From Gossypium raimondii (Eukaryota; Streptophyta; Magnoliopsida; Malvales; Malvaceae), in contig NC_068567.1 in NCBI RefSeq assembly GCF_025698545.1, positions 59,959,371-60,023,370 on the forward strand: 64,000 nt of DNA, written 5' to 3'. The position numbers and the translations under genes were made by a program. This document shows positions 2,607 through 63,300 of this stretch, in pieces; within the stretch, counting starts at the first letter, position 1; each line of letters starts with the position of its first letter. The notes beneath the pieces were generated by a model. It did no database searches and was not told the origin of the DNA. It saw nothing but the letters and a program-made list of their open reading frames with translations.

Positions 2607-2829
2607 AGGATATTTACTAAAATATTATAACAAAAATAAAAAATTACCAAAATGTTATAACTTTTTTTTATTTACCAAAATATATATTATTTTTTTATTT
2701 ACCAAAATATATAAAAAAAACAAAAAAAAAACCTGAAAAAAAAAATCTGACCTATGTGACGGGTGTACCTTGGTTACGCCAATGGGATTGGCGGCACCAA
2801 AGGTGCCAAAGCCATTGGCGGCACCAATG
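2607..2829 (+). repeat. Left terminal inverted repeat of the MULE
   Basis: About 223 bp match the reverse complement of 9631-9847. The outer ~140 bp are AT-rich with several TTTACCAAAATAT units; the inner part (GTGACGGGTGTACCTTGG onward) is GC-rich and holds about two copies of a 27-bp unit built on ATTGGCGGCACCAA. The match is lost just after GGCGGCACCAATG. Confidence 0.88.
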
Positions 2830-2854
2830 TTTATTGGGGGGGTCGGTGGTGGGG

Positions 2855-3108
2855 GGACCAGAAGGAGAGGGAAAGAAAGAAAAAAAGAAAGAAAGAAAAA
2901 GAAGGAAAGAAAAGGAAAGGAGAAGAGAAGAGAAAAAAAGAAAGAAAGAAAGAAGAAGAAAAGGAAAGGAGAAGAAAGAAGAAGAAAAGGAAAGGAGAAG
3001 AAAAAAGAAAGAAAGAAGGAAAGAAAAAGAAAGGAGAAGAGAAAAAAAAAGAAGAAGAAGAAGAAGAGGGAAGGAAGGAAAAAAAAGAAAAGAAAAGGTA
3101 TTTTTTAA
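2855..3108 (+). repeat. Polypurine (GA-rich) tract inside the MULE left arm
   Basis: Roughly 250 bp are almost pure A and G on the + strand (AAAGAAAGAAAGAAG and GGAAAGGAG units). A shorter pyrimidine-rich run on the same strand at about 9461-9548 stands in the mirror position of the right arm, so the purine tract seems to be part of the element, expanded on the left. Open frames crossing it encode only Lys/Glu/Arg runs and lack an ATG at the head; I do not treat them as genes. Confidence 0.75.
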
Positions 3109-4102
3109 ATTTAAAATTTTTAATATTTGTGTGTTTAAAATTTATGTTACGTACATTATAGTTATTTTATTATTTTGTTTAGCATATATATTTTATGAAA
3201 TATATTTAGAATGAAAAAGGAATGGTATGTACATTGTATGTTGATTAGGATTTTTTATGAAATTTACTTAGGAATTTGAAATTTAAATTTTAGGAAAATA
3301 GCATTAAAAGAAAATGACAAAGAAGTATGTTTAAGAAAACATAAAATACGAAAAAAAATGGGAATTGTATATTTATCGAAAATAATAAAATGGGAATAAA
3401 AATGCGAAAAGTGTACATGTAATAAATTTCAAACATAATAAATTGAAATAATATAAAATTATAAAATAAAAATTACGATATTTTTAAAAATAATAAAATA
3501 CGGAAAAAAATACGAACAAATGGCAAGTAAGAGTGTATTAGTAAATTTTTAAAAATTCAGAAATAAGTTATATAAATAATTGAAACAAAATGTACTGAAA
3601 TAATATAAAATAATAAAATACAAAATAATATATTTTTCTTGAAAGTAATAAAATCGGAAAATAATAATACGACTAAAGGGCGGGGAAAGGGTTTATTTCG
3701 GGTTTTTACCAATATATTAGAAAAAAATATGAAAATATTATAATTTTTTTATTTACCGAAATAATGAGTTTTACAAATATATTAAAAAATTAAAATAACC
3801 AAAATGTTATAAGTTTTTTATTTACCAAAATATATCAAAAAATGCAAAAAAAGGGTGATGGTTATTTTTTACGAAAATTAATATGAGCAAAGGGCAGCGG
3901 TAAGGGTTATTTTTTACAGAAAATTAATTCAAATAACACACTAGATTAATAAATTTCAAACATTATGCACTGGAATAATATAAAATTATAAATTTAGAAA
4001 TTATGATATTTTTTACAGGAATAAAATGCGGAGAAAAAATACGAATAAATGGCCGAAGTAAAAATTTGTTTCTAACTTTTTTTTCAACTTGCAGGCATCG
4101 CA
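3109..4102. other. MULE left arm between polypurine tract and PMD gene
   Basis: AT-rich non-coding DNA inside the transposon. It contains several degenerate copies of a block like 'AATAATATAAAATTATAAAATA..AAATTACGATATTTTT' (about 3430, 3590, 3970) and TIR-like TTTACCAAAATATAT runs (about 3710-3840), which suggests internal tandem duplication of subterminal sequence. It presumably held the PMD gene's promoter. Confidence 0.5.
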
Positions 4103-6085
4103 ATGGCTAGATTGATTCAAAGCAATATTAGACATATATCTGATGCGGCTAATAACGCGGTATGATTTATTATTTGTTAATTAGGAGTTCTATTTATTTT
4201 AAAAGGATATACGCATTATATACAAAGAAATTATGTTATCTGTAATTTAACACTATCAGGACTCGTTCCGAGTATTAAGGGGCCGCGTGAGTGTTTTAAA
4301 GAAATCTCCGGATGATCGATTGCTGCCGTACCTGGAGCTAGCCGGATTTGGGTCAGTAGCATTAATACGGTCGTCCGACTTGCGCTTTGATTTATTATTT
4401 GCGCTAGTGGAGCGGTGGCGTCCGGAAACCCATACTTTCCATTTTCCGTGCGGGGAGTGCACGGTGACCTTGGAGGATGTTGCAGTGCAGCTGGGGCTCC
4501 CAATTGACGGGAGTCCCGTAACGGAAGTATCGTCATCCACCGATCTGGCTGCAGTTTGCTATCAACTCCTAAGAGAGTCACCAGAGGACGGCGAGAAATA
4601 TTTTTTCGGTATCAAATTTACATGGCTAAAAGCCAAAATTAGACAATTATCAGCAACCGCGACTGAAGCTGAGTTGATGTGCGTTGCCCGAGCGTACATC
4701 ATGCATATGATCGGGGAAATACTTATGCCTGATGTAAATGGCGACTGTGTGCATTTGTCGTACCTGCCCCTGCTAGCTGATTTCTCCACTGCTAGGCGAT
4801 ATAACTGGGGTTCCGCCGTTTTAGCAACGCTCTACCGGGAGCTTTGTCGGGCGACAGAGCCGCAGGTTAAAGACATCGGCGGATGCCTCATACTGCTGTA
4901 GTTGTGGGCACTTTATCGGATGCCGTTTTTGGCACGCGTTAGTCACCAACCCTATCTGTATCCACTGCCACTCAGGTGATAAGACGCTAAATTGTCATTA
5001 TTTGTAGTCATAATATATTAAGTAATGTTACCAACCCTAAACCCTATACTATTTTTTGTAGGTGGAAGACCCGTCCCGGCATCGGGAAGTCGTCTGATGT
5101 CCCGATATACCGCATGAGGATTGAACAGCATGCCCGGGAAGGGGTAAGCTGCTATTCTAATATTCATGACATCTATTCTATTTCTATATATTAATCACAT
5201 GTTATCGGTCTAACTCGTTACAATGTTATTACTCATGCAGTTTATATGGATGCCATACCGGAGGCGGGAAATTACAAATGTCGTACCCTCGTCTGCACTC
5301 GTTGATTCCCACATATGGTGCATTAACACACCAATTATTAATTTCAACGTCATCGAGTGGTATCACGGCGATCGCGTGCTTCGGCAGTTTGGGTGCATCC
5401 AACCTATCCCGGATCTGCCGGCCCAGTTGGAGGATGATCACGGCTTGACAAAGAGAGGAAGAGTTCAATTGGACTGGGGAATCAAGCACCGGAAATACGT
5501 CGCACTGTTGAATGATCCATTTCGCCGAATTCCTCAAATGGTTATGGCTACGGACCTGCAACCATCATTGGAGTATACAGAATGGTACCATAGTTGCGGG
5601 AAGCCATATTTACTTGAAGGGCAATCGACTATAATCCCCCAGTACGTGCAGCAAGTTGGAGCATCAGACGACCCAAGCCCGATGGATCCAAATTCGACGG
5701 CATATTATTCTCCGCAACTGACAGAGCCGGAGCAGGACCCTCAGCTAGATCCCGGACATTCACAGTCAAATGTGGATTCACATGGCTATCGTCTGGATTT
5801 GGTGGCTGATGAATATTATCTGAGCTTCGCAAAGGGCGAATACGCCTACGAGTTTGAACTGTTTGGATGCCCCGACCGCACTACGGCATGCCTGGCCCGT
5901 CTGACACGTATCCGCAGCATTATGGTTCAAGTTCGTCGGCGGCGAACGAGGCATAGGACCTTTTCTCTATGTTTTCCATGCCCCCACCTGCGGACGATGA
6001 GGATGTTGGTCGTCACCCAGACCGTGAGCGTCGACCTCCGCAGAGGTATACCCCCCGGACAACACCATCGAACCATCGATTTTAG
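4103..6085 (+). pseudogene. Plant mobile domain (PMD, MAIN-like) gene of the MULE, decayed
   Basis: The gene encodes a PMD protein, the domain shared by transposons and the host genes MAIN/MAIL1. Four exons can be read: 4103-4159 (MARLIQSNIRHISDAANNA), 4260-4975, 5062-5143, and 5241 to about 6085. Introns have GT-AG ends and phases agree. Family hallmarks are LLPYLELAGFG, DLLFALVERWRPETHTFHFP, GECTVTLEDVAVQLGLP, and after the third intron FIWMPYRRR and NPFRRIPQ-like text (DPFRRIPQM). A TAG at 4899-4901 stands where the family reads CTG CTG CAG, so a glutamine codon appears to have become a stop. Between about 5820 and 5920 the frame slips: the family-like C-terminus (RRPPQRYTP, then a TAG at 6083-6085) is in a different frame from the exon's main part. 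Its role in transposition is not known. Confidence 0.85.
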
Positions 6086-6302
6086 GGGTTTGATGCACTT
6101 TCTGTATAAAAAGCCATATTTGTATTTTATTTGACCTTACCTCTGAATTTTTTGTATAAATATCCATTATTATTTTTTTCATTATATTAAAGCTGAATCG
6201 AATTATGAATGACTCTATTTTTGATATAATCTTAATAACTCCAAGTGCGCACATGGTACAAAGCCGAATAAAATTACTGTTTATAACAAAATACAAAGCA
6301 AA
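6086..6302. other. Gap between the two convergent MULE genes
   Basis: This short AT-rich stretch separates the PMD stop from the transposase stop. It must hold both 3' ends; AATAAAATTA-like A-rich signals occur near 6266. No gene is seen. Confidence 0.5.
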
Positions 6303-8999
6303 TCAATTTTGCCCCGATCCGGACGACTGACCAGCATGAAAGTTTCGGTTAGGGCATTTATTCCGGCTATGACCACTTAACCGGCATATTCCACAACGCT
6401 TTTCATCAAATTTTTCCTTAATACCCATCTCATTACGGATTCTGCTTGACTGCGGACGACCCCTTGGATTCCTCTTTAGCCCTCTGTCTGGGATCAGCTC
6501 GAAAGTCATCGGCGGCACTTCCCATGTAGATAGGTCCGGCAGGACGGGGAACTCATTCTCCCAGACACGCAATGTTTGCTCCAGCGTGTACACATCATCG
6601 ACATATTTTTCAACATCAATGTTGACTTTAGCACACGCCGCCACGACATGTGCACAGGGATAATGAATTGTTTCAAACTTCCTGCACTCACACCGTCTGT
6701 TCCGGAGATCAACTCCGTAGGACCTATGTCGACGACCGATGTTCTCAGTAACTCGAAACGTTTCTAGTCGTCGTGAATATATTTTCACGTTCATTGACCT
6801 CGCCAACCGACGATTTATGACCATTGCATCCCTTACATGTTCGACAAACACATGTCCCGCCTGAATCTGGCCGACTTGCTACTGACCCATTCTTGGCATC
6901 AAAGTAGCCAGCCTGTAGAAAGTAGCAGAAAATACCGATGCAATCAGAAGATTACGTATTTTCAACAAGACAGCGTTGATCCCCTCGACTACGTTTGTGG
7001 TCATGTGGCCGTAACGGAAGCCCTCGTCAAAACTTTGAGCCCACTGCCCGGATCCATTGTGCGCAACCATTCTCGGAAAGATGTGTTTGTCTGCCCCTCC
7101 ATGTCACTCTCAAGTCGGATCATTCTTTCCTGGAAAATATGTGGCTCTAACTCGTACGCTGCATACGTATTAACGAAAAATAAGTTTTAGTAAGTCGATA
7201 ACATCAAACATTATAACTTATAGTGAAAATATAAGTTTATCATTTACCCATTGCCACGACTTGTCTCTTCCAGTCTGCATTCTTATAATCTTTATGGAAG
7301 TTAGACGCTATGTGATGAATGCAGTAAACGGATCTCCACGGCACACTGGAACGCTTAATAGCTGCAATTAAACCCTTCCCTCTATCGAAGATGATGCAAA
7401 TGTTATCGTTCTTAATAACATACCTCCGCAGATTTGTGAGGAAAAATTCTCAAGACTCCATGTTTTCTTTATCTACGATAACAAATGCTATCGGGAGCAC
7501 GTTTCTGTTACCGTCTTGAGCAACTGCAAGAAGTAGGATCTGTGTATATTTTCCATACAGCCATGTTCCATCCACCTGCACAAGTGACTTGCAGTGGGGA
7601 AATGCCCGCACACATGGATCGAACGTCTAGAACATCCGATGGAAAATCTTTTTTACCGGCTGTAACTGGTCATCCGGGCCGTAATATGGACTTGTCTGCA
7701 ACTCAATCACAGTCCCCGGTACATACTCCCGCACAGCAGCTATCCAACCTTGAAGCTCGTTATACGATGAATCGTAATCCCCATATAGTTGCTCCATCGC
7801 CATCTGTTTAGCCATCCATGCCTTCCGATATGAGACTCGATACTGGAATCGTGCTTGCATTTCCGTAATGAGTACCGAAACTTTAATGGTCGGCATGTCC
7901 TTCACCATTGGCATGATATACGCACAAATAGTTTTCGAATCAAGTTTTCCATGATCTTATGTCATAGGTGTTGATGTGCATGTATGAGGACCAACAAATT
8001 TTCGTATCTCCCACAGCTGAGAACTTCTAATGAATGCAGCTCGTACCTGCCAATTGCAGCCTTCTGCTACCTTTTAACACTCCCCAACATATATTGTCGG
8101 AGTAGACACGGATACTTTATAATCCACCGATATCTTCATGCTGTACCATTTAATGGCATATACGCACTCTTCTTTACAGCTGAATCTCTGGCCTATGAAT
8201 ATATCATCATCATCAGATGTTACGGGCAGCCCGTGAGAATGAACTATTTCAGGGTACTCCGGAAACTCAGCTACATACGCTACGTCGGGGTCTATGAGCG
8301 ACATGTGTGGCCCAGGATTATTGTGTATCACAATACGCCGCATCTGCTCCACGACCGAAGAAGTGTTAATGCCTTCATCGTTGTTGACATCTTCATCGTC
8401 AATATCATCAGGTACATCGTCAACATCGGATCACAGTCACTATCGACCTCTTCATCCCAATGATCGCCACCACCTTCTTCTTCGTCAGCACCTTCTTCTT
8501 CACCACCAACCATGTCAACATCGGGTGTAATATTCAGGTCGATATCGATCCCACCCATAGTTGATTCACTATCAACGTATGATATTGGAGCCACCATCCA
8601 CGGTTCTTCAGCCCCGTCTTCTTCATCATATGCATTAACATCTTCATTTTGCTTCATACCGACTAACTCAGCAAATAAGTGAATCGGTGCATTTTTCTCA
8701 CTCTCATTCCCACTGCAGAGATCGACTATTGTCTCCACGTCTTCGTCGTCTACAAGTTCCATTTCGACGAATTTGACCGGATTTGTCGAAACTGGAAACT
8801 TGTAGAAAATTTTTGATATTCTTCTCCCACAACGTCTATGAATTTTTGCATTAATCATTGCCTTCATTTCATCAAACGATACATTTCTATTAAATCTCAT
8901 TGCTATTTGTTGCCGACATTCAAATACACATCCAACACTTGTTGTCAAGATGACTCCATCAAAATAAACGCATACAAGAAACTTAGCATCCATCTTCAA
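6303..8999 (-). pseudogene. mudrA-type MULE transposase, decayed
   Basis: Read on the minus strand from an ATG at 8997-8999. Order of parts: an N-terminal region (MKMDAKFLVCVYFDG) with an acidic stretch; a MuDR-type N-terminal domain (DIFIGQRFSCKEECVYAIKWYS); the MULE transposase core with DGTWLYGKYTQILL, then IIFDRGKGLIAAI, an intron at about 7177-7248, and TTNVVEGINAVLL, supplying the D, D and E; a SWIM zinc finger (CECRKFETIHYPCAH); and a C-terminal CCHC knuckle (CGICRLSGHSRNKC). Decay: a one-base loss near 8429 shifts frame, stops interrupt about 8065, 7960, 7629, 7455 and 6880, and a frame slip lies near 7060. Zinc fingers and C-terminus are intact. The protein would bind the TIRs and cut and join DNA; this copy cannot be made whole. 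Confidence 0.88.
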
Positions 9000-9281
9000 T
9001 ATTTAATCTGTCAAAAAAAATCTCATAAAAATTCTCGAACGGTAACTAAATTACTTAAAAAAATTTATACTCAAAATAATATACAAAATAATACACACTA
9101 AAATTATTAATTTTACTAAAAATAATAACTAACTAACTAACTATAATAATAATACTAGTTTTTTACTAACTAGTTTATTTTTGTAAATAAAATAATAAGT
9201 AACCATAATAATAATACTAGTTTTTTGCTAACTATAATATTACTAAGTTACATCTTAATACATTAATAACATCTTAATACT

Positions 9282-9329
<48 letters not shown>

Positions 9330-9584
9330 AATAATAATAATACTAACTAATACTATTATTTTGAGTTTTATTAATCTTAATAAATAAAGTAAAACAAAAA
9401 ATATTACAAAATATACAAAATAATAACAACAATATAATAAATTATTTTTTTAAAAAAATACCTTCTTTTTCTCCTCTTTTTCTCTCTTTTTTTCTTCTTT
9501 TCCGCAGCAACTCTTCTTCTTTTTTTTTCTTTTGATTTTTCTCTCTTCAGCTGGATAGATGTCGTATTTATAATACGAGTAGTG
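9000..9584. other. MULE right arm with (AAC)n microsatellite
   Basis: Non-coding element DNA upstream of the transposase start. It includes two near-copies of 'AATAATAATACTAGTTTTTTRCTAAC' (about 9146 and 9206), a pure AAC/CAA microsatellite of about 14 units (about 9285-9328) grading into AAT units, and a pyrimidine-rich run (9461-9548) mirroring the left arm's purine tract. Confidence 0.7.
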
Positions 9585-9630
9585 CCGCCAATCAATACAG
9601 CACCATTGGTGCTGCCAATGGTATTGGCAC

Positions 9631-9847
9631 CATTGGTGCCGCCAATGGCTTTGGCACCTTTGGTGCCGCCAATCTCATTGGCGTGACCAAGGTACACCCG
9701 TCACATCGGTCAGATTTTTTTTTGGTTTTTTTTATTTTTTTGATATATTTTGGTAAATAAAAAAAAATATATTTTTTGGTAAATAAAAAAAAGTTATAAT
9801 ATTTTGGTATTTTTTTATTTTTGTTATAATATTTTAGTAAATATCCC
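9631..9847 (-). repeat. Right terminal inverted repeat of the MULE
   Basis: This is the mirror of 2607-2829. Its inner edge is longer in 27-bp units than the left side: about four imperfect copies of CACCATTGGTGCCGCCAATGG-like units run from about 9585 to 9690, against about two on the left. The outer end is followed directly by the AACAATACT target duplication. Confidence 0.88.
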
Positions 9848-10019
9848 AACAATACTTCTATGAAAAAAAATTATAATATTATAATAAAGTAGAAAAGAAA
9901 AAAACCTGAGGGTCTAATCAAACGATGGCAAAAGATTCTTTCGGCTAACATTCAACTCAAAATAGTTACTTCTAAAAATATCAATCATGTGATATACAAC
10001 TGTTATTTTTTCATTTCTT

Positions 10020-36936: not shown

Positions 36937-38376
36937 TCAAACTGAACCTTGTGAACCTTTATTTCCCACTTTAATCTCGCCGCCGGCGCCGGTGCTGCCT
37001 CTCATTTCACCGCTAACCGCCACGCCAACGCCTTGATACTGAGGCGGCACCATAACACCTCCTGGGGCAGTATAATAAACTCGCCTGTCGTACGCTGCCA
37101 TGTGTGCGTATGAAGAATCTGGTACTCCTCCGCTTTGCGGCCTCACCATTTGCTGTGTCATGCCGGATATTGGCGGGTGTTGGGTTGGTGGAGGTTGTGC
37201 CACCATGTTGTAAACGGGTTGCTCCCGGTAGACTTCGGATGGCATTCTCTGTACGTTGGTGTAGTAGCCTTGACCGGCTTGTCCGGTTACCGGTCGAACC
37301 ATTTGTTGCGTTGCTGGTGCAGAAGCTGGAGCTGGAACTTGTGGAGGCGCGTGGTAGACGGTGGCCGGAGCATGTCCTTGTGCTGGGATCATGTAGACTG
37401 GATGTTCAGAGTGCGGAGGTTGGCCGGGGTTTGTAGTTACGGTTGCAGGGAAACCTCCGGCAGAAATTGGTTTATCCGACCAGAATCCAGCTGTAGCTGG
37501 TACATGTTGTTGGAAAGTTACCGGTCTGTTCACCGGAGGCGCTTTTTCAGGCATCTTCTGTGCGTAGTATTCCCCTGTATAAGCCATGGAAGCAGCGTCT
37601 TCAGTCTTCTTTCGATACATAGCGAGCTGTTCTTGATCCCGAATTTGAAGCCTCTGCAATTCCTGTAACTGTCTCTGAATTTCAACGGGATTCAAAACAT
37701 GATCTGTCCCCACGACTTCCGGTATCGGAGGCGGAGGCGGGTTCACCGGTTCCACCACGGGATCACGGATTTTCACCGGCGGAGGTTGAGGGATCCCCTT
37801 TTCAATCCCAAACAAGGAATCCAAATTGTTTGGTGGAATCACAACTCCACCCGGAGTCGTGCCGGAATTGAATGCCTCTACGAACCCTTCCCGCTCCGAT
37901 TTCGGCCCTTCGGAACCGAAATTCCCTAGGTCAGTCGCCGGAAATATGAAAAGCCGCATCCTCGCTGGCTTAGCCGAGGCTCGATAAAGCCGATCATACT
38001 CATGCATCATGTGCTCGAGATCATCATCATTAGTGACAGAAATAAGGGCGTCAAGGTCTTCACCGGGGAGCTGGTACTTGAACGAAACCTCACCGTCGCC
38101 ACCGCCGCAAAGAGCTGAGAGCTTGGAGATCATGGAGGAGAATTTGATAGTGCGTTCAACAGCTAGGATCTTGGTCTCTCCACCGATGTAAGACAGCTGA
38201 TTGTCATGAGGGCGAGGGTGGATCTTACCTCCATAGCTGCACATAAACTTGGCCTTGTAATTTTGAGCATGTTGCTGTTGGTCGTCCCATGGCGGCGGAT
38301 TTTCGAAGTCGATTTCTCGGGACCGTGGCGAAGAGTTGCCGGAGTCTGGGTATGAGTTATAAGAGTAATTCTCCAT
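36937..38376 (-). CDS. PB1 (octicosapeptide/Phox/Bem1p) domain protein, intronless
   Basis: A single exon of 479 residues, complete from MENYSYNSYPDSGNSSPRSR to a stop at 36937. The PB1 domain covers about residues 40-145: the basic lysine strand KAKFMCSYGGKIHPRPHDN, ETKILAVERTIKF, and the acidic OPCA-like motif YQLPGEDLDALISVTNDDDL followed by EHMMHEYDRL. Having both the basic and the acidic face, it could self-associate or bind other PB1 proteins. The rest is low complexity, with proline runs, a short coiled stretch (PVEIQRQLQELQRLQIRDQE, about 235-255) and a Gln/Pro/Val/Tyr-rich C-terminus. Close relatives are Arabidopsis At5g64430-type proteins; the signalling-scaffold role is inferred from PAL OF QUIRKY, a relative. 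Higher GC than its surroundings, as usual for an intact gene. Confidence 0.9.
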   Translation of the reverse strand: MENYSYNSYPDSGNSSPRSREIDFENPPPWDDQQQHAQNYKAKFMCSYGGKIHPRPHDNQLSYIGGETKILAVERTIKFSSMISKLSALCGGGDGEVSFKYQLPGEDLDALISVTNDDDLEHMMHEYDRLYRASAKPARMRLFIFPATDLGNFGSEGPKSEREGFVEAFNSGTTPGGVVIPPNNLDSLFGIEKGIPQPPPVKIRDPVVEPVNPPPPPIPEVVGTDHVLNPVEIQRQLQELQRLQIRDQEQLAMYRKKTEDAASMAYTGEYYAQKMPEKAPPVNRPVTFQQHVPATAGFWSDKPISAGGFPATVTTNPGQPPHSEHPVYMIPAQGHAPATVYHAPPQVPAPASAPATQQMVRPVTGQAGQGYYTNVQRMPSEVYREQPVYNMVAQPPPTQHPPISGMTQQMVRPQSGGVPDSSYAHMAAYDRRVYYTAPGGVMVPPQYQGVGVAVSGEMRGSTGAGGEIKVGNKGSQGSV

Positions 38377-59850: not shown

Positions 59851-60352
59851 TATTTTAATCAAATTAATGCCGTATCACATTCACAGAGTGGCACTCAGTT
59901 GTCCGGAGTCACGTGACTTGTTAAGATTAAGTAACCCCGATACGCCGACGTACTGAAGGAGGAACATAGCGTAGATAAAAACACGCTGAGAAAAGAAAAG
60001 AAACTAAAAGATCAAAAAAGGAAAGGCTGCGAACGAGCGAGAGGCGCGAAGACTGAGGAGAGAAACAAAATTTTCATTCAATCATTCTTAAATCTGTTAA
60101 AAAGACATAACGGAACCAAAAAAATAAAAATAAAAATAAAAAAGCAGAGAAAAAAAAAGAAAAAAATAAGGAGGCAATGGCAGCAACGGCCGCAAATACG
60201 AAAACGATAACGCTATTGGCGTTGGGAGGGAGCTTCTTGATTCAGAAATGACAATCCGAAACGTTAACATTTGTGTTTTTTTGGTAAAACATTTTGCTAT
60301 TATTTTAAGTGACGAAATCTGATTGGATTCTAAGAATTTTGGTGGATCGAAA
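59851..60352 (+). promoter_or_regulatory. Promoter and 5' leader of the PI4K-alpha gene
   Basis: A GTCACGTGAC palindrome with a G-box core (CACGTG) lies near 59911. GC content rises from about 59920; a purine-rich leader (AGCGAGAGGCGCGAAGACTGAGG) follows around 60035 and A-rich runs around 60120-60170. Transcription probably starts near 60000. Some upstream ATGs lie in the leader (e.g. 60178), so the true leader may be spliced or carry upstream frames. Confidence 0.5.
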
Positions 60353-63300
60353 ATGGATCCGATGATCGAACTGTGCGACATTATAGCGAGACGTCCGGAG
60401 CAATTTAGAGACAAACTAGCTTGGATTTGCGGTAGATGCCCGCAGCCGGAGACGTTACAGAACGACTCGCCGAGGGCATCAAGGTCGCAACTCCATGCGG
60501 TGATTGGCGTCGCGCGATTTCTTTCTAAATGTCCCCATTCGAGGGATGACCGACCTATATCGGTGACGCTAGAGTTTATTCGGGCCATTCCGTCATCGTT
60601 CCATCGTTCCTTTTGGCCGCAGTCTTACAACAACGATGCAATTTCTTCATTCTTCGTTGATTTCTTGAAATACATTTCTGAAACCGCTAATGCATCTCCC
60701 GATCTGGCTTCCGAGATCGCCGAGTATTTCGGGGAGGTAGTTACTACCTCCGTCAGTAACCAGGAAGGAAACGGAAACGATACGGCAATTTCTAGGGCTT
60801 TCCTGCTGGCTTTGTCAAATAACTTCCCGCCAGTTTTACAGTCTGATGCTGATCAATTGATAGATCACCTTTTCGATCAATTATCTACGTTACTTACGGC
60901 GTCACAGGGGGAGATTCCAGGAACCTTGGATACTCAGGCTGCAGCCAATGGGAGTAGTGTTTATTGGAATAGTTATGCTGATCACATGAATTTCAGTATT
61001 GATGGAGGTGGGACTATGTTTGCGCAACAAGTTGCTTCATTCGAGGACGAGTCCATGGAGAGCTTGGAGAAGCAAGAAGTTGCTTTTAAATTGATTGCTC
61101 ATACTTTGGAAAAGGTGAGCATTGATCAAAAGCATTTGGAGCAAGTGAGATTAATTGCAAAGAAGCAGCTTCAATCTATGTCTGCATTCCTAAAGGTAAA
61201 TGCCAACGGAAGCCTTGTGCTGTTCTATTTATTTCCGTTAAATTAAGGCACCCAAGTAATGCATTTTATTGGTAAAGTATGAAGAAATGGGTAACTTGTA
61301 CTCGTTTTGTAGAATAAGTTAGCATTTGAACCTTGTAGAAGCAATGTATATTGAAAAACGAGATGGTCACAACTTTTGACTTGGTATGCAGATTAGGAAG
61401 CGTGACTGGAATGAAAAAGGACAACCTTTAAAAGCCAGAATTAATGCAAAACTATCAGCTTTTCAAGCTGCTGCTAGGATGCAAATTAAAAGTCTTGTCT
61501 GTCTTGATGTGGACGCAAAGACCTCTAAGAAATTGGTGCTTGAGACTCTTGCATTGTTGATAGATGCTGCTGAAGCTTGTCTGCTCTCTGTATGGAGAAA
61601 GTTGAGAGCTTGCGAGGAGCTATTCATTTCCTTGCTTTCTGGAATTGCACAAGTTGCTGTCTCTAGGGGAGGGCAGCCGCTGCGTGTTTTGCTCATTCGT
61701 CTCAAACCCCTTGTGCTGGCTGCATGTATGCAGGTATGTTTTGTAGCTGGTTTTAGATTCTAAGTCTCGAAAATATACTTATAGATAGATTTTTTTCCCT
61801 TTTCTGTTTTTATTTTCGTAACAATGTGAATGTAACAGGCTGATACCTGGGGCAGCAGCCAAGGAGTCATGTTTGACGGTGTTCTGAAGACATGTTGTGA
61901 GATTATTGAAACTGGCTGGGCCAAAGACCGAGCTCCAATAGATACATTTATCATGGGATTAGCTACAAGCATTCGTGAGAGAAATGATTATGGGGAGCAG
62001 GTCGGTGGTATAATATTAACCATTGAATTATTAAGTCAAACAGAGAACTGCATGTGCTTGTGTGTGGGCCTAATGCACTGAACAGAGTTATACATGCAAC
62101 ATTTAGACAAACATACCTTCTCTTGATATGTGGTTTATAGTCTTTGTTCTCAATTTAGTTTAAAAGTCTATTCTTTTTCTTTTCTTTTCATATCTTTTTG
62201 CCAGAGCATTCCGCATTTGCATGTATAGAGGTTGCCTTTTACTTTTGTTTAATATGGATCAGTAATGTTATCTGTCGCCTATTATATCTTAGTAGGCTAT
62301 TTGCCTGTTTAGGTGGTAGGTATGTATGTTTCCTTTATTTATGCTTATACTTAACAAATAGCTATTGCCCCGTTTAAGTTTACTTCTTCGCTATGTTTAC
62401 ATGGTCATGCAAATTTCAGGATGATAAAGAGAAGCAGGAAGTTCCAGCAGTACAGCTTAATGTAATACGTTTGTTGGCTGATCTAAATGTTGCTATCAGC
62501 AAGCCTGAAGTGGTGGACATGATACTTCCTATTTTTATTGAAAGCTTAGAAGAGGGTGATGCTATAACTCCAAGCTTATTGCGACTTCGAGTATGTATTT
62601 TGTAATTATAAATTTAAAAACTTCTTTTTCTGCTATTTAGGTACACAAGTAACTGAAAGATTTGACTAATACTCTTTCTTGTTTAGATCACACGGCATGG
62701 TTTCTCAACTTTGACATGTACTCAATTTACTGCAGCTTCTTGATGCTGTATCTCGCATGGCAAGTTTAGGTTTCGAGAAGTCATATCGGGAAACAGTTGT
62801 TCTGATGACGAGAAGTTACTTGAGTAAACTTTCGAGTGGAGGGTCTGGAGAAAACAAAACTTCGGAGTCAGAGGCCACCACAGAACGTTTTGAGGTGTGC
62901 ATTATTTGTGAGATAGAAGTAACAATTTAGCTGTCTGGTAGTTTTTCTTATTGGTTTGGTGCTCACTGGTTCAATCACATTCTAGACTCTTCCTGCGGGA
63001 TTTCTTTTGATTGCCACTGGTCTTAAGAATGCTAAATTGCGCTCAGACTATCGGCATCGCTTGTTATCTTTGTGCTCTGATGTAGGCTTGGCAGCTGAAG
63101 CAAAAAGTGGCAGGTAAATATTTTCTGATTAGCAATATATTTGTCTTTCCTTATAATTTATGTATTTTGCTGTCTCTCTGTTTTATGGCTTGCTTTCTGC
63201 AAACTTCTTTTTTTGCTATCCTCATAATACATGTTCCAAATATTTTATTTCCAGTATCTCAAATCTTGCAGGAGTGGAGCTGATTTTCTGGGGCCCCTAC

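Follow-up and report, generated by a model that had tools for sequence, protein, structure and literature searches.

A Mutator-like element (MULE) in the genome of Gossypium raimondii carries, convergent with its transposase gene, a gene for a plant mobile domain (PMD) protein that is very probably a selected factor encoded by the element itself. The element lies at positions 2607-9847 of the window, a stretch of 64,000 nt (NC_068567.1, 59,959,371-60,023,370; contig C3), and its relatives were sought in the genome of 750.8 Mb (281 contigs, with C1-C13 at 48-63 Mb each). Co-inheritance of the two genes, their convergence, purifying selection and the mobility of elements lacking PMD are observed directly. 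On balance, and by a modest preference, these observations are best explained if the window element is a decayed member of a MULE family with two genes, in which a selected PMD protein acts in the manner of VANC. An earlier note on this DNA had proposed that PMD serves as the second factor of the element; co-inheritance, convergence and selection uphold this, while the multiplication of relatives without PMD sets a limit to it.

Pairing of the PMD and transposase genes

The family carrying the window element is large. A PMD exon search returned 4608 first-look candidates, searches with two pieces of the transposase 2400 and 2745, and a search with the left terminal inverted repeat (TIR) 786; these are candidates and not confirmed copies, and the best 150 of the PMD set and of each transposase set, and the best 40 of the TIR set, were scored. 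Among the 150 scored PMD matches, 94 have a scored transposase match within 9 kb, which is exclusively convergent in 93 and accompanied by one in another arrangement in the last; for the other 56 no transposase is among the matches listed within that distance. Pairing was also read in reverse, with 220 transposase loci set against 150 exon-1, 150 exon-2 and 36 further PMD matches at a reach of 6 kb. Here, 137 loci have a listed PMD match, convergent in every case, and 83 have none among the matches listed, nine of them at places that lack PMD. The second gene thus converges with the transposase, which is the layout of the MuDR type.

Fifteen transposase places without a listed PMD exon-1 match, picked for open frames, were read on one side. 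PMD is in place at nine and not at six, the latter comprising four members of a PMD-less subfamily (L038-L041), one internal PMD deletion that retains the tail (L034) and one ambiguous case (L033). Twenty PMD places, drawn from the best 37 ranks, were read over 10 kb: TIR matches are found at both ends in 18 and at one end alone in L010 and L024. Convergent transposase pieces are kept in 18 of the 20 (13 two-gene elements, the remainder deletion derivatives), and L014 and L022 have PMD with no transposase piece. The expectation that the two genes would always occur together and convergent therefore stands as regards orientation, and is qualified by these two copies and by the PMD-less subfamily. 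L022 (C3:59205869-59215868) is bounded by TIRs, and both of its large PMD exons are free of stops.

Selection on the two genes

Pairwise NG86 estimates over the 20 places put the median ratio of nonsynonymous to synonymous divergence (omega) of the PMD exons at 0.37 and 0.44 and that of the transposase pieces at 0.40-0.72. A codon model with separate omega values for internal and terminal branches distinguishes selection between insertions from later decay; the shape and relative branch lengths of its tree were fixed from a nucleotide tree, and internal and terminal lengths were rescaled. Omega is 0.46 internal and 0.69 terminal for 26 PMD sequences, and 0.33 and 0.92 for 17 transposase sequences; in the same 13 elements the values are 0.44 and 0.73 for PMD and 0.37 and 0.95 for the transposase. 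For these 13, an internal omega of 1 is rejected for both genes, with twice the log-likelihood difference (2ΔlnL) at 26.2 for PMD and 25.2 for the transposase. The prediction of purifying selection on both genes is thereby borne out, and neutral evolution of PMD, which would have marked it as a passenger, was not cleanly found. A terminal omega of 1 is rejected for PMD (2ΔlnL 8.7) and retained for the transposase (0.4); the PMD value below 1 may be due to unsampled relatives. Controls on the internal branches of 12 elements gave 1.03, 1.04, 1.10 and 1.31 for non-coding sequence and 1.44 for antisense, and the +1 frame of PMD gave 1.79 (2ΔlnL 3.3) against 0.37 for the true frame; one control fit had not converged. 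Since internal omega is well below 1 and the controls are near or above 1, PMD is kept as a protein.

MULEs capture genes, and derivatives lacking PMD or the transposase exist, so that PMD might be a captured passenger without selected value for the element. The internal omega of PMD, set against its controls, and the convergent placement at all partnered loci make this highly improbable, and assignment to the Pack-MULE class of unselected captured sequence was rejected on the internal-branch selection.

Distances in PMD and transposase are correlated (Mantel r 0.44, p 0.0018). As judged by eye, the trees of the two genes in 13 elements have seven of ten groups in common. Median synonymous divergence in the same elements is 0.217 for PMD against 0.123 for the transposase (PMD larger in 75 of 78 pairs), and nonsynonymous divergence is higher in PMD in 58 of 78. 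Silent-site divergence along the elements (L009-L028) follows a gradient without a step, with its minimum at the transposase N-terminus; the excess in the PMD half might, for example, stem from recombination that homogenizes the transposase half. VANC is likewise described as showing far lower conservation than VANA, the transposase of its element (PMC5735166, Fig. 5 legend), and in this the element PMD resembles it.

Elements without PMD

In the PMD-less subfamily (L038-L041, L047-L050) the right end, copied in inverted orientation, stands in place of the PMD-bearing left half. A junction search found 10 places with a near-whole junction and four with a fold-back type; four of these 14 places were read, and at the ten others the absence of PMD is deduced from the junction alone. 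The four read elements (three near-whole, one fold-back) measure 4.2-4.8 kb, and all have TIRs, duplications of 8-9 bp (by eye; one with a mismatch) and a broken transposase. Because the transposase is broken as well, they look non-autonomous, and an intact transposase without PMD, the other finding that would have told for a passenger, was not cleanly seen in these four. In the tree their transposases group next to those of PMD-bearing L023 and L024, and the loss of PMD is therefore secondary. PMD-less relatives thus exist and have multiplied, which limits the view that PMD is needed as a second factor; lacking their own PMD when they moved, they may have drawn transposase and PMD from elsewhere.

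This mobility bears on the proposal that PMD helps the transposition reaction itself, in integration or complex assembly, as a MURB-like protein with no link to silencing. Co-selection with the transposase suits such a role equally well, the convergent placement matches mudrB of MuDR (PMC3440606), and mudrB is apparently required for integration (PMC6446971), its function being called unknown in PMC3440606 and PMC3276141. We nevertheless consider it unlikely, as all four read elements belong to family members that moved after PMD loss, and the sole outstanding structural neighbour of the predicted PMD fold is an anti-silencing protein (see below).

Structure of the element in the window

The features of the element and its flanking target-site duplication (TSD) are as follows.

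2598-2606, no strand: left TSD AACAATACT, perfect 9 bp
2607-2829, + strand: left TIR, outer part AT-rich with 26/27-bp repeats, inner part GC-rich
3770-3852, + strand: internal copy of the outer TIR, overlapping a 69-bp repeat at 3704-3832, ~400 bp upstream of PMD exon 1
4251-4976, + strand: first large PMD exon, PF10536 profile 5-179, putative 3′ border
5214-6085, + strand: last large PMD exon, PF10536 profile 238-347, putative 5′ border
6086-6302, no strand: spacer between the native stop codons of PMD and transposase, 217 bp
6303-8993, - strand: MULE transposase with weak DBD_Tnp_Mut, MULE domain and SWIM
9600-9682, - strand: 27-bp GC-rich tandem repeat, 3.1 units, within the inner right TIR
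9631-9847, - strand: right TIR, paired with the left TIR
9848-9856, no strand: right TSD AACAATACT, perfect 9 bp

The earlier note had described a full MULE with a duplication of 9-10 bp, TIRs of about 220 bp, a transposase on the minus and PMD on the plus strand, and about 215 bp between the stops, and on these points it was accurate. The TIRs pair at 86% over 2608-2728/9726-9846 and at 91% over 2719-2829/9631-9741, about 220 bp in total, and the termini read AGGATATTTACT and GGGATATTTACT. The element thus shows the marks by which MULEs are recognized (a TSD of 8-11 bp, long TIRs, a MULE domain and a SWIM finger), with the transposase frame broken. A perfect TSD of 9-10 bp flanks eight of 12 aligned full-length elements, the window copy included, two have one mismatch, and L020 and L021 have none (by eye); with TSDs at most of these elements, chance is not an issue for the element call.

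PF10536 matches the first large PMD exon at 1.6e-47 (162.8 bits) and the last at 1.7e-12 (47.6 bits), against a curated cut-off of 34.9. In the last exon a variable linker is followed by a conserved basic tail (5957-6085), and the native stop at 6083-6085 is placed by the C-terminal tail RYTPRTTPSNH common to other copies; the transposase stop is at 6303. SWIM matches at 6.5e-6 (26.0 bits, cut-off 19.6), PF10551 (MULE) matches two pieces at 3.5e-6 and 7.4e-5 (27.8 bits against a cut-off of 27.6, the other 23.6 and below it), and DBD_Tnp_Mut stays below its cut-off (14.7 against 25). The transposase probably has an intron near 7172-7243. The window copy is a dead, decayed relic with neither gene intact, because in-frame stops and frame changes interrupt both: PMD has a premature in-frame TAG in exon 1 (4899-4901) and a frame change ahead of its C-terminal tail, and in the transposase the stop-to-stop segments reveal five or more in-frame stops and a single frame change.

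GGTGCC/GGCACC marks number from 0 to 7 per end across 17 elements and vary between copies. The 27-bp GC-rich repeats of the inner TIRs are likewise variable in number, both among copies and from one end to the other within a single copy. All 20 copies examined have an internal match to the outer TIR on the upstream side of PMD, at a distance of roughly 400-850 bp from exon 1; it could be a PMD promoter, a site for protein binding or the end of an older element.

Comparison with known elements

Table 1 of Dupeyron et al. 2019 (PMC6446971) gives the MUDR group a TSD of 9-10 bp, TIRs of 30-320 bp, a SWIM transposase and a mostly antisense PMD, and the paper names Gossypium raimondii as a host of this group; the window element fits it in TSD, TIR size, SWIM transposase and antisense PMD. 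As antisense PMD is listed there, the convergent layout is already known. The same source reports PMD open reading frames (ORFs) in MULEs of the MUDR, MUDRAVI2 and MDR groups, and in its Table 1 PMD "in most" members of three groups neighbouring MUDR and PMD and/or DUF in half of VANDAL members. In its available parts PMD is treated in the table alone, and a selection test, a copy survey and a function do not come up; likewise, no selection test of MULE PMDs was found in the open-access literature searched.

Maize MuDR also has two convergent genes and TIRs of ~215 bp, with promoters inside them (PMC3440606), and differs in that its second gene is mudrB, stated to be restricted to Zea (PMC3276141), instead of PMD. 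To place PMD in the "position of mudrB" would express a likeness of place only. PMD-transposase fusions are described from grasses and Amborella (Ikeda 2017, PMC5418596) and eudicots are said to hold mainly genic PMD-C (Nicolau 2020, PMC7156037), whereas in the cotton MULE family PMD is a separate convergent gene, abundant and in a eudicot. Elsewhere in the genome, the PMD gene L055 (C2:12574990-12579500) has a convergent ORF, L058, that by eye resembles a MULE transposase N-terminus, which suggests that a further MULE family shares the layout.

A possible role for the PMD protein

The fold predicted for PMD appears to resemble VANC21 (PDB 9lnj), the anti-silencing protein noted above. VANDAL21 with VANC21 is comparable to the window element: it too is a MULE whose second protein varies more than its transposase, and repeats are the targets (PMC5735166). 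VANDAL elements are recognized by absent or short degenerate TIRs (46-174 bp in the table of PMC6446971) and the window element differs with TIRs of 220 bp; VANC carries DUF1985 and DUF287, whereas the cotton MULE family has PMD above its cut-off and DUF1985 below, at 14.5 bits against 35.1 in the first PMD member. Sub-threshold DUF1985 matches occur in 12 of 16 PMD members at E up to 10 (best 0.0012). DUF7745, a domain of unknown function, gives weak Pfam matches in seven of 16 aligned PMD sequences (best E 0.0005) and may also be related to PMD. The open-access literature searched yielded no statement that links PMD to VANC or DUF1985 by fold.

In the mechanism we propose, the transposase would cut and insert the element via its TIRs, and the convergent PMD would be the second factor, needed by lineages over evolutionary time. 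It would bind element DNA as VANC does, the candidate sites being the variable repeats of the TIRs or else the internal TIR copy ahead of PMD, and, acting in trans, would free its own family from silencing by the host, so that PMD-less derivatives could still spread. That PMD is such a VANC-like anti-silencing factor is slightly less probable than its contrary. More tentatively still, PMD and the VANC DNA-binding domain may be one ancient fold, used against silencing in TIR-bearing and VANDAL MULEs alike, with MAIN/MAIL1 the same kind of protein on the host side; PMD would then act on repeats of its own family. An anti-silencing role for MULE-captured PMD has been proposed before (Ikeda 2017, PMC5418596; PMC8616336). 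Host proteins with a PMD act in transposon silencing and in meristem control; a selected, element-borne PMD, together with its predicted likeness to a DNA-bound anti-silencing protein, makes the function of PMD directly testable, and an arms race between MULEs and MAIN/MAIL1 would gain molecular footing. The predicted VANC resemblance seems the part most worth following.

Relation to host PMD genes

A PMD tree of 30 sequences, exclusively from this genome, comprises 22 family PMDs, a second MULE PMD group (L051, L053, L055 and L056), L052, which from its motifs we take to be MAIN-like, and three long genes (L029-L031) that we take, on the same footing, to be PMD-B. The 22 are sister to the second group (support 86/88) with L052 outside both, and the three long genes are distant from family PMDs and L052 (100/100); within this set the family PMDs group with L052 against L029-L031. 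The next best listed genome matches to L052 are 40-47% identical to it, and over compared columns four of five tabulated MULE PMDs are 41-44% identical and L037 32%. The position of L052 fits transfer in either direction, host to MULE or MULE to host. The suggestion that host MAIN-type genes originated near a working transposition system is consequently not sustained, and from a 308-sequence tree it was argued that MULEs captured PMD-C twice, from the host (Ikeda 2017, PMC5418596).

The host genes MAIN, MAIL1, MAIL2 and MAIL3 (PMD-C) share the PMD family and a link to transposable elements with the window element (PMC5418596), and MAIN and MAIL1 silence such elements together with PP7L (PMC7156037, PMC8616336). 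PMD might accordingly be a decoy that blocks the MAIN/MAIL1-PP7L complex by mimicry, for which the earlier anti-silencing proposal and the identities to L052 speak as well. The interaction surface is hypothetical, however, and the two MULE PMD groups form their own clade and do not track the host gene; we regard a decoy as quite unlikely, and return to the VANC-like reading as the preferred one.

Neighbouring sequence

Beyond the element, six ORFs of at least 180 amino acids lie at 10000-64000 of the window, some resembling ordinary plant genes; that at 36937-38376 is presumably a PB1-type protein and that at 60323-61246 presumably a PI4-kinase-like start.
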